Source: Terriglobia bacterium (GTDB lineage: Bacteria; Acidobacteriota; Terriglobia; Bryobacterales; Bryobacteraceae). Taken from it: a DNA stretch of 64,000 nt. Positions 23,118 through 26,432 of the stretch are shown here, piece after piece (positions within the stretch are counted from its first letter, which is position 1; every line of letters begins with the position of its first letter). The DNA lies in contig JAJPHN010000044.1 in NCBI GenBank assembly GCA_021325235.1, positions 62,001 through 126,000 of the forward strand, read 5' to 3'. The notes beneath the pieces were generated by a model that saw nothing but the letters and a program-made list of their open reading frames with translations, ran no database searches and was not told where the DNA came from. A program made the position numbers and the translations under genes.

Positions 23118-23675
23118 TTACTTCGCGTTTTGCTTGCGGTGTGCGAGCCGGCTGCATGCGTCGGGCGTCTTCAGCATCTTGATCGCATCGCCTCCCGATT
23201 CGATGGTGTCGATTCGGCCGTTTGAATCGATCACAAATGTGACCCGATTCGCCACTCCGTACTTCGGAATGTAAATGCCGTATTCCTGCGAAACCTTACG
23301 ATCGAGAAAGTCGCTGAGCAGCGGAAAAGTCAACCCGAGCTGCTGGGCGAATGCCTTCTGCGAAGGTGTGTTGTCCGTACTGATTCCGAAGACCTTCGCG
23401 CCCGTCTCCTGGAAGTGCTGCATACCAGACTGGTACGCTTTCATCTCCGCCGTTCAACCGCCCGTAAACGCAGCCGGGAAGAACGCCAGCACCACCGTGC
23501 TCTTCCCGATGTAGTCGGCCAGATGAACCGTTCCCCCGTCCGTCGATGGAAGAGTGAAATCGGGCGCCTTATCGCCTTTTTTCAGCGTGCTCGATACCGG
23601 CTCTGCGCCCCTCGTTGTCCACGCCGCAATCCCCGATGCAAAAACACCCAGCGCCGCTCTTCTGTTGAGAATCAT
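23118..23675 (-). CDS. Exported peroxiredoxin with in-frame TGA (probable selenocysteine) at the peroxidatic position
   Basis: A single frame of 185 residues is interrupted once by TGA (23454-23456, codon 74). The upstream part has a signal peptide with a twin-Arg-like start (MILNRRAALGVFASGIAAW) and the AhpC/TSA core (GDKAPDFTLPSTDGG, VVLAFFPAAFTGG). After the TGA it continues TAEMKAYQ, VFGISTDNTPSQKAFAQQLG and FPLLSD. Cysteine homologues read FTGGCT at this point, so TGA replaces exactly the peroxidatic Cys. A hairpin of bacterial SECIS type follows 15 nt downstream. Selenocysteine is therefore likely. The alternatives are a sequencing error or a one-base nonsense mutation. A divergent GMC oxidoreductase operon starts 88 bp away. 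Confidence 0.75.
23420..23438 (-). promoter_or_regulatory. Candidate bacterial SECIS element
   Basis: On the mRNA the hairpin is GCGUACC-AGUCU-GGUAUGC: a 7-bp stem with one G-U pair and a loop holding an adjacent G-U. Fifteen nt separate the UGA from the stem, and the loop G lies 24 nt after the UGA, within the spacing known for bacterial SECIS elements. The loop resembles the AGGUCU loop of E. coli fdhF. Confidence 0.6.
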
Positions 23676-23763
23676 TTCCTTGCTCCCGGAAGTACGACAG
23701 TATCACGGATTGATCGCTTGGGAAGATTCACTCCGGCAGCGATCGTGTGAAACAATCACATTG

Positions 23764-24390
23764 ATGAAACGCCGAACGCTGCTCCGCTCCATAGCGGCAA
23801 TCCCTTCGCTCGCAGCCGGCCAGACGCTACCGCAGCGCGAGACGACGGCGGCGCGCGACAAAGGATTGCCCGCCGGACCAACGCTGATTCCGCCCGGCGT
23901 GAACGAGACGCCCACGATCCCGGTCATCCCAGCCGATGAAACTTCCGATTCGCGCATCCGCACCTTCGACGGACAGCAGCTTGCGGCCCTCGCCCGGCTC
24001 GGTGAAGTCCTCGTTCCGGCCTGGGATGGAAAGCCGGGCGCAGCAGAAGCCGGTGCTGCGGAGTTTCTCGATTTTCTGGTTGGCTCTTCGCCGGCGAACC
24101 GCATCGAGCTCTACAAGAGCGGCCTGGATGAACTGAATCGACGCGCCCAACAGCAGTTCGGCAAACCATTTGCCGCTATTTCGCAGGCCGATGCGGATTC
24201 GCTACTTGCGCCCTTGCGCGAAAAATGGAGTTACGGGCGCGCCGCAAAGAACGATTTCGAGGCCTTCCTCCTGGCCGCGAAAGGCGATCTGCTGCGTGCC
24301 ACCGTCAATTCGCGGCCGTACATCAATGCCGTGTCGCAGGAGCGGCGCCCCCGCAACGCTTCCAATTTCTTCTGGTATCCGATCAGCTGA
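23764..24390 (+). CDS. Gluconate 2-dehydrogenase subunit 3-family protein
   Basis: 208 residues from the ATG at 23764 (MKRRTLLRSIAAIPSLAAGQ, a twin-arginine-type leader); the longer frame upstream overlaps the divergent peroxiredoxin. The C-terminal half (LAALARLGEVLVPAWDGKPGAAEAG...FLD, and INAVSQERRPRNASNFFWYP) fits the small subunit of membrane-bound FAD dehydrogenases, which helps export and mature the flavoprotein. Its stop directly abuts the ATG of the GMC oxidoreductase, so the two form one complex. Confidence 0.82.
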   Translation: MKRRTLLRSIAAIPSLAAGQTLPQRETTAARDKGLPAGPTLIPPGVNETPTIPVIPADETSDSRIRTFDGQQLAALARLGEVLVPAWDGKPGAAEAGAAEFLDFLVGSSPANRIELYKSGLDELNRRAQQQFGKPFAAISQADADSLLAPLREKWSYGRAAKNDFEAFLLAAKGDLLRATVNSRPYINAVSQERRPRNASNFFWYPIS

Positions 24391-25953
24391 ATGTTCCACC
24401 GCAATTACGATGTTCTGATCATCGGCTCGGGGGCTTCGGGTGGCACGGCGGCGCGCCAGTTGACGCGCAAGGGCATCCACTGTCTGATGCTCGATGCCGG
24501 ACCTGCCGTTGACTTCACCCGCGACCGCGAACTGAAGAAAGTCTACACACTGCCATATCGGGGTTTCGGCCAGCCGGGCCGTTTTCCGCACGTCACGCAA
24601 GCCGACGAATACACCGAGAATGTCTGGGCGGATGAAAAACAGAATCCCTACACGTATCCCAAAGACGATCCGTATTACTGGGTCCGTGTGCGCCTCGTCG
24701 GCGGCAAGACGCTCTTCTGGGGCCGCGCGAGCTGGCGCCTGAGCAATTACGAATTCAAGTGCAAGGATCACGACGGCTTCGGAGAGAACTGGCCGATTGA
24801 ATACAACGATCTTGCGCCCTACTACGATCAGGCCGAACCAATGCTCCGCGTGCAGGGGCGCAAAGAAGGACTTCCGCAACTGCCCGATGGCGTCTTCATG
24901 GAAGACAAATCGCGCGATTCGGAAGCTTCGCAGCGCTTCATTGCGGCCGCGCGAAAGCGTGGCATCCCAACTACGAAGGAGCGCGTCGCCACCGGACAGC
25001 TGGCGAGCTCGGTCAATCGCATGCTGCCCGACGCGCTCGAAACCGGCAAGCTGCAGATCGTCTCAAACGCCGTTGTGCGCCAGATCACTACGGACCCCAA
25101 TACGGGTCTGGCAAACGGAGCGATCTTCATCGATCGCCGCAGCCGGCAGGAATTTCATGCCAAAGCGCGTGTGGTTGTGGTCGGCGCGTCCTGTCTGGAA
25201 AGCACGCGTCTGCTGCTCAATTCCGGACTGGCCAATTCAAGCGGCGTGCTCGGCCACTATTTGTTCGATCAGTTCTATGTCAAAGACGTCGTCAGCTGTA
25301 TCGTTCCCGAGGCGCGCAATCGTCCAAGGCCCGGCATTACCGGCGGCGACGGTTATGTCCCGCGTTTTCGCAACCTGGACCGGCGCGAGAAGGATTTCCT
25401 TCGCGGCTACGCGATGGACTTCAACAGCGGCGGCACGCCCAATCCGGAACTGCTCCCCTGCTACGGAGCCGAGCTCTTGCGCGAGCTGAACGAGCTGCAG
25501 GGTGCATCCTTCAGCCTGACCGCCATGGGCGAGGTATTGCCGCGCTACGAGAATTATGTCGAAATCGATAAGTCGACTGTCGATGCCTGGGGCATTCCGG
25601 CCCTGCACATTCGTGCGAAATATACCGAGAACGAATTCGCCATGGCGCGCGACGCAATGAACACCGCCGAGGAGCTTTGCCACGATGCCGGTTTTGAAGT
25701 CCTGGCGAAGCACTGGCAGATGGTACCGCCCGGCGAAAGTATTCACGAGCTCGGGACTTGCAGAATGGGCGATGACCCCAAAAAATCTGTGCTGAACAAG
25801 TACAACCAGACGCACGATATCAGGAATCTTTTCGTTGTAGATGGCAGTTCATTCGTTTCGGGCGGTTCGCAGAATCCAACCCTGACCATCTGCGCAATTT
25901 CGATGCGGGCATCGGATTTCATTGCCGAGCAGATGCGCCGGGGTGACATCTGA
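24391..25953 (+). CDS. GMC-family FAD oxidoreductase (gluconate dehydrogenase large-subunit type)
   Basis: 520 residues. The FAD-binding Rossmann motif [18 protein letters not shown] is at the N-terminus. The GMC core includes [17 protein letters not shown] and [12 protein letters not shown]. The C-terminal [18 protein letters not shown] and [13 protein letters not shown] match the family, with the catalytic His region near HELGTCRMG. It oxidises a sugar or polyol, probably in the periplasm when exported with subunit 3. Electrons likely go to the multihaem cytochrome just downstream. It starts immediately after subunit 3; the substrate is unknown. Confidence 0.92.
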
Positions 25954-25970
25954 CGCGCCCATTCTGGATC

Positions 25971-26432
25971 GTGCTGCTGCTTGCGTGCTGTTGCAGTGCG
26001 CAGACCACCAGTCCAGTCGGCCAGCCCATTCCCTTCAGTCATAAGAAACACGTCGAGACAGCGCATCTGAAATGCGCAGACTGCCACAAGCTGGCGCGCT
26101 CGGGCGAAGTCTTTTCCATTCCGACTGGGCCAACGTGTATGACCTGCCATGCGCAGATCGCAAAGGACTCGCCGGCCATCAAGGACCTGAAGGAATACGT
26201 CGCTGAAAAGCAGCCGGTGCCCTGGGTGCGCGTGTACGAAATTCCAAGCTTCGTAAACTTCGATCACAAGACGCATCTCAATGCTGGTACAAAGTGCGAG
26301 ACGTGCCACGGACCGGTCGCGACACGCGATTATCTGTGGCGCGAAACAGATTTGAGTATGGGCGGATGCTTCAACTGTCACCGCCAGACGGGCGCGACGA
26401 CCAATTGCGCAGCCTGTCACAACCTGGAATGA
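25971..26432 (+). CDS. Five-haem c7/c3-type cytochrome
   Basis: 153 residues with five haem c motifs: CADCH, CMTCH, CETCH, CFNCH and CAACH. Extra histidines at FSHKKHVETAH and FDHKTHLNAG are probable distal ligands, giving bis-His haems as in class III cytochromes. The GTG at 25971 gives a short lipoprotein-like leader (MLLLACCC). The same frame reads [15 protein letters not shown] from a CTG at 25950 overlapping the previous stop, so the true start may be there. It is the likely electron acceptor of the GMC dehydrogenase. Confidence 0.85.
   Translation: MLLLACCCSAQTTSPVGQPIPFSHKKHVETAHLKCADCHKLARSGEVFSIPTGPTCMTCHAQIAKDSPAIKDLKEYVAEKQPVPWVRVYEIPSFVNFDHKTHLNAGTKCETCHGPVATRDYLWRETDLSMGGCFNCHRQTGATTNCAACHNLE

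Follow-up and report, generated by a model that had tools for sequence, protein, structure and literature searches.

Results

Gene and in-frame TGA codon

The window, that is, the whole 64-kb stretch of DNA analysed here, contains a peroxiredoxin reading frame with a TGA at its active site, which raises the question of whether this codon breaks the gene or is read as selenocysteine (Sec). An earlier sequence-only reading had favored a probable selenoprotein, with the TGA placed exactly at the peroxidatic cysteine, and had named no strand. Plus-strand reading of positions 23118–23675 yields unrelated sequence; the gene lies on the minus strand, where the single in-frame stop of the peroxiredoxin frame is the TGA at 23456–23454 (codon 74, in the context FFPAAFTGGUTAEM). 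When TGA is translated as U, the frame gives a protein of 185 aa whose match to PF00578 (AhpC-TSA; 133.2 bits, cut-off 26) covers residues 34–156 and runs across the TGA, bearing out the earlier statement that the frame is full length and otherwise undamaged. The placement at the peroxidatic cysteine is confirmed by this translation, by alignment with Mycobacterium tuberculosis AhpE and by the codon retained in homologues. The features of the locus are listed in Table 1.

Table 1 Features of the peroxiredoxin locus, in window coordinates.
Feature	Position	Strand	Basis
CDS of the predicted selenocysteine peroxiredoxin, 185 aa with U74, TAA end	23118..23675	(-)	TGA=U translation; PF00578, 133.2 bits
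UGA, predicted selenocysteine 74, in PxxxTxxU; aligns to the FTGIC cysteine of M. tuberculosis AhpE	23454..23456	(-)	TGA in 112/137 classified homologues
Putative SECIS hairpin GCGUACCAGUCUGGUAUGC with GUC in its apical loop; spacer of 15 nt from UGA to stem	23420..23438	(-)	
Ribosome-binding-site-like GGGAGCAAGGAA, 5' of ATG	23676..23687	(-)	inspection
N-terminal export-signal-like stretch MILNRRAALGVFASGIAAW..., twin-arginine-like	23607..23675	(-)	inspection
Codon of Cys174, the one cysteine of the protein; near-invariant among family members; candidate for resolving Sec	23154..23156	(-)	

Across the six frames of the 64-kb window, 62 TGAs have at least 60 open codons before them and at least 90 after, so the open frame around a TGA is by itself no evidence. 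What is beyond chance is that this TGA falls at the position of the active-site Cys in a recognised protein family and is retained there in 112 of 137 classified homologues.

Relatives were found in 197 of the 200 related genomes searched (the window's own included), and 129 loci, the majority of the matches listed, were used, tblastn places above 1e-15 being left out. At the active-site codon, the 137 classified homologous genes carry TGA (112), TGC (21) or TGT (4). Two unmatched places stand outside this set: L158, with TGA in an odd motif, and the second place of L143 (G020:C8), a decayed copy near a Sec gene with Arg at the Sec site and a stop further on. The ten nearest homologues (L033–L042; eight of the window's genus, two of its family) all have TGA in a full frame, in keeping with the earlier reading. 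Of the 16 other genomes of the window's genus, five are without a close copy, G006 carries TGC and the remaining ten carry a TGA gene, although two of these genes (L102 and L110) are truncated or include an undetermined base. Cysteine homologues had been said to read FTGGC-T; most of the 25 Cys genes do so, but two read FTSGC. Matches in plasmids (7 records) and phages (13 records) are all below 60% identity.

With the standard code, the TGA interrupts the frame, and the ORF list gives just a 108-aa C-terminal piece, as would be seen in a pseudogene created by a nonsense mutation. Median pN/pS is 0.14 before the TGA and 0.215 after it (55 pairs from 11 orthologues, nine of the genus including the window's and two of the family), with pS near saturation and the ratios accordingly rough. 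These values point to purifying selection both before and after the TGA. Given the ratio after the TGA, a frame with no further damage and the same codon in many genera, decay of the gene is hardly credible.

A frame open through the TGA would also be produced if UGA were generally reassigned to sense in this lineage. Yet TGA terminates four of nine inspected neighboring genes, all nine are free of internal stops, and within the family TGA is bound to one codon and one hairpin (see below), leaving reassignment with next to no credence. On the plus strand at 23764–26432, divergent neighbors encode a gluconate 2-dehydrogenase subunit 3, a GMC oxidoreductase and a cytochrome c family protein. In flanks of up to 1.5 kb at 30 loci, the flanking YdjM, gluconate-dehydrogenase-subunit-3, GMC and cytochrome genes match only the window's own locus; since they are unmatched at the 29 relatives' loci within this distance, no operon argument is drawn.

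A conserved hairpin downstream of the TGA

The RNA behind the UGA can form the hairpin GCGUACC-AGUCU-GGUAUGC, a SECIS-like feature which the sequence-only reading had not sought and which further backs a selenoprotein. Singly this hairpin is unexceptional (z=-1.48; 20 of 200 shuffles fold equally well), so the case for a SECIS rests on comparison. After removal of one duplicate window, which reduces the set from 112 to 111 distinct Sec genes, all five core pairs are present in 89 of 111 Sec genes and in just one of the 25 Cys genes. When synonymous codons were shuffled with the protein kept (500 runs), the five core pairs occurred in a mean of 2.3 and a maximum of 7 of the 111. The first apical-loop base is G in 111/111. 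Ala at +9 is encoded by GCT in all 81 Sec genes with Ala there, in four of ten such Cys genes and in 13% of Ala codons elsewhere, and Gly at +10 by GGT in 89% of the 84 Sec genes with Gly there, in 2 of 25 Cys genes and in 17% of Gly codons elsewhere.

Pair 23–31 joins the third position of codon +7, usually a Tyr codon, to the second position of codon +10, which usually encodes Gly or Asp. In 110 Sec genes it is C/G (81), T/A (28) or T/G (1) and never C/A, while the 25 Cys genes have nine C/G, three T/A, five T/G and eight C/A. Pair 22–32 is A/T in 102, T/A in 7 and A/C in 2 of 111 Sec genes. The amino acid at codon +10 thus tracks a mostly synonymous choice three codons upstream, which is best explained by RNA pairing. 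Among phylogenetically independent pairs on starred branches, covariation is concordant in a mean of 3.8 of 4 (median p 0.125), too few for significance.

The hairpin comparison also bears on a sequencing or assembly error concealing a true TGC or TGT, a reading encouraged by the single base that separates TGA from the Cys codons and by the draft state of the 60-contig genome. The full hairpin accompanies TGA and not Cys, and the homologues with TGA at this codon lie nearly all in other genomes. With independent assemblies showing TGA, a sequencing error at this base is very unlikely, to the point of being negligible.

As a group, the Cys genes contain 2.04 hairpin pairs versus 1.90 in shuffles, no clear excess. 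In one of them, L097 (TGC; G043:C18), the SECIS-like hairpin is intact, and the genome that carries this gene has selA, selB and tRNA-Sec. Remnant SECIS elements in Cys genes have been described for FdhA of Mannheimia and a HesB-like protein of Desulfitobacterium (PMC1794560). L097 resembles these in its intact hairpin behind a Cys codon and differs from them in that the remnant lies in a peroxiredoxin.

Sec machinery and its co-occurrence with the Sec form

The sequence-only reading had pointed to selA, selB, selC and selD as its check, and all four are present in the source genome (5.03 Mb, 60 contigs, 95.7% complete). These comprise selA, which lies on the window's own contig, C42 (501.9 bits), a full-length selB (377.2 bits), selD (362 bits) and a tRNA-Sec (73.1 bits), for which ARAGORN gives the anticodon tca. 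Small contigs carry further copies: a partial selB close to the end of its contig (G000:C36:150-1004; 62% identity with the main gene) and another selD (G000:C3:9955-10890; 81% identity). These extra copies possibly derive from a contaminating relative (estimated contamination 4.77%).

The family was classified in 124 of the 200 related genomes, with L158 hand-added as Sec, and the Sec form is present in 104. Sec occurs with selA in 99 genomes and without it in 5; Cys alone occurs with selA in 13 and without it in 7 (Fisher p=5e-4, relatedness not corrected). The 13 selA genomes with Cys forms only indicate that the machinery does not force Sec; within the window's genus, G006 has the Cys form despite selA, selB and tRNA-Sec.

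The presence of selB and tRNA-Sec was also examined in 14 genomes, of which 12 have no selA. Five Cys genomes (G118, G064, G066, G081 and G136) lack both selA and a selB over cut-off. Their best tRNA-Sec matches score 44–50 bits, and four of the five exceed the Rfam cut-off of 47; since matches above cut-off are also seen in 5 of 14 control genomes and clear tRNA-Sec genes score 63–75 bits, these are taken as other long tRNAs. Of the remaining Cys genomes, G087 (no selA; 74% complete) has selB and G032 (62% complete) has neither. Among the five Sec genomes in which selA was not detected, G046 and G111 have selB and tRNA-Sec matches of 71 and 54 bits (G111 being less clear), G033 and G090 have selB with tRNA matches at background level, and G056 has a 63-bit tRNA-Sec match and no full selB. 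We read the absence of selA from these five draft assemblies as likely assembly gaps.

These data can be set against programmed UGA readthrough in which an ordinary amino acid is inserted and the hairpin acts as stimulator. Hairpins after stop codons can stimulate readthrough, and the product is so far predicted from sequence alone. Against this, the genome contains the Sec machinery, the intact non-TGA homologues all have Cys (25/25 classified; the lone Arg copy is decayed), and the five genomes lacking both selA and selB over cut-off have Cys. Readthrough of this kind is therefore very improbable. TGA at the active site, conservation of the hairpin, complete machinery and selection on both halves together make a selenoprotein very probable, and the tests by machinery, homologues, hairpin and selection support the original proposal. 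We predict with high confidence that the gene encodes a selenoprotein in which UGA74 is read as Sec via the SECIS.

Protein family and conserved residues

The protein has the hallmarks of a Sec peroxiredoxin: its PF00578 match is above the gathering score, PAAFTGGU fits PxxxTxxU, and the active-site Arg is conserved, its column being invariant among 66 aligned members. No NCBIfam model attains its cut-off for this protein. The top score is that of the Bcp model NF006960 (thioredoxin-dependent thiol peroxidase; 85 bits, cut-off 140), and the PrxU model NF040737 reaches 69.4 bits (cut-off 270). Because the standard code breaks the frame at the UGA and no such model is attained, the gene is easily mis-annotated.

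By sequence, the top solved-structure match is M. tuberculosis AhpE (E 4.9e-25). U74 aligns with the Cys of FFPLAFTGIC, which we take from residue counting to be the peroxidatic Cys45, and the family's invariant Arg aligns with an Arg of AhpE. The AlphaFold model has a mean pLDDT of 94.5, and Foldseek places Sulfolobus Bcp and AhpE at the top of its list (AhpE: TM 0.87, 39% identity). The window protein is AhpE-like in both sequence and fold.

Cys174, the only cysteine of the window protein, sits in a C-terminal helix of the AlphaFold model, and at least 90% of the 66 aligned members likewise have Cys at this position. Exactly one cysteine beyond the active site is found in 25/25 Cys genes and 104/112 Sec genes. 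These properties make Cys174 a natural candidate resolving residue, which may resolve the oxidised selenium. The N-termini of 40 family members mostly look signal-peptide-like by eye, a few having uncertain starts, suggesting that the enzyme probably works outside the cytoplasm.

Among the 112 Sec genes, 31 have V, I, T, A or S in place of the Pro of PxxxTxxU, a residue described as highly conserved (PMC13188914); among the 25 Cys genes, it is replaced in only one. These replacements require four changes on the quick tree (see below) and are carried by L041, L042, L071, L079, L080 and 27 further genes. Neighboring pairs of Sec peroxiredoxin genes occur in eight genomes of the related family f6 (L085, L090, L092, L094, L098, L099, L142 and L150), and several of the second copies have a divergent motif, e.g. 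FYVYANTPGU.

Repeated exchange between Sec and Cys

A single-protein scan of the genome contigs kept 80 relatives at 31–44% identity, of which 78 have Cys at the site and two have a stop there, and provided outgroups. A quick tree of 145 rows (137 genes and ten outgroups, minus two short genes; outgroup rows counted) needs 19 Sec/Cys changes, at least 7 of them forced by starred branches; the outgroup was not recovered as one group in this tree. A careful tree of 78 rows (25 Cys genes, 50 of 110 Sec genes and three uncounted outgroups), with the SECIS-coding columns excluded, needs 16 changes (14–16 across bootstraps), of which at least 9 are forced by well-supported branches. In both trees, G070 (Sec, with selA) and G118 (Cys, without selA), two genomes of one genus, are sister rows.

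Parsimony alone does not fix the direction of change. In 2000 sampled reconstructions each, a Sec root gives 8–16 Sec-to-Cys and 0–8 Cys-to-Sec changes, and a Cys root, which costs one step more, gives 4–15 and 2–13, respectively. The hairpin core is much alike throughout, and L097 has an intact hairpin in a Cys gene, which together favor one origin followed by repeated loss, although the Cys genes taken together have no clear surplus of hairpin pairs.

Discussion

Sec-containing peroxiredoxins are a known kind (PMC13188914, PMC1794560, PMC5029168, PMC1088965), as the sequence-only reading had stated for other bacteria, and the window gene adds to them. It is like these enzymes, including PrxU of Eubacterium acidaminophilum, in having a peroxidatic Sec in PxxxTxxU and a bacterial SECIS behind the UGA. 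It scores below the cut-off of the PrxU model and may also differ from the published members in its export-signal-like N-terminus, AhpE-like character and near-invariant C-terminal Cys. M. tuberculosis AhpE, which it resembles in sequence, fold and the aligned Arg, is a 1-Cys peroxiredoxin by its PDB titles and has Cys where the window protein would have Sec; Cys174 and the signal-like N-terminus are further differences. We recognised no treatment of this peroxiredoxin family among the open-access papers listed, although one may exist.

A working scheme can be proposed. The SECIS 15 nt downstream of UGA74 would recruit SelB carrying the Sec-tRNA-Sec that SelA makes using selenophosphate from SelD, and the product, judging by its N-terminus, would probably be exported. 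By analogy with family chemistry, Sec74 would attack the O–O bond of H2O2 or organic hydroperoxides. We give roughly even chances to the next step, in which Cys174 would resolve the selenenic acid as a selenenylsulfide, to be reduced by a thioredoxin-like partner of the envelope. The alternative would be a 1-Sec mechanism with an outside thiol.

The unexpected aspect is evolutionary: repeated Sec/Cys change, an intact hairpin behind the Cys codon of one gene, and a Cys form in the window's genus alongside the machinery. Our combined proposal is that a probably exported family in this class of bacteria gained Sec and SECIS once and lost Sec to Cys many times independently, often with the machinery kept, that its C-terminal Cys resolves Sec, and that many Sec members are without the PxxxTxxU Pro. 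Taken as a whole this is tentative, with somewhat less than an even chance of being right. If a single gain with many Sec-to-Cys losses is true, it would be the opposite of the Cys-to-Sec trend that a 2006 survey reported for peroxiredoxins, its Table 1 giving five Cys-to-Sec and no Sec-to-Cys events (PMC1794560). The close Sec/Cys contrasts offer near-matched enzymes with which the reasons why Sec is kept or lost become directly testable. Useful ones are G070 versus G118, the Cys gene with hairpin in G043, and the Cys gene of G006.

For Acidobacteria, four selenoproteins in three families were reported in 2006 (PMC1794560), and Occallatibacter riparius, of the Acidobacteriota, has three known selenoprotein genes (PMC12013277). 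The source genome also contains a gene for a deiodinase-like protein (locus L161:722-1480, minus strand; PF00837, 95 bits) with a UGA at G000:C20:143605-143607 in the motif FGSYTUPPF and a predicted hairpin downstream, a probable second selenoprotein of this genome.
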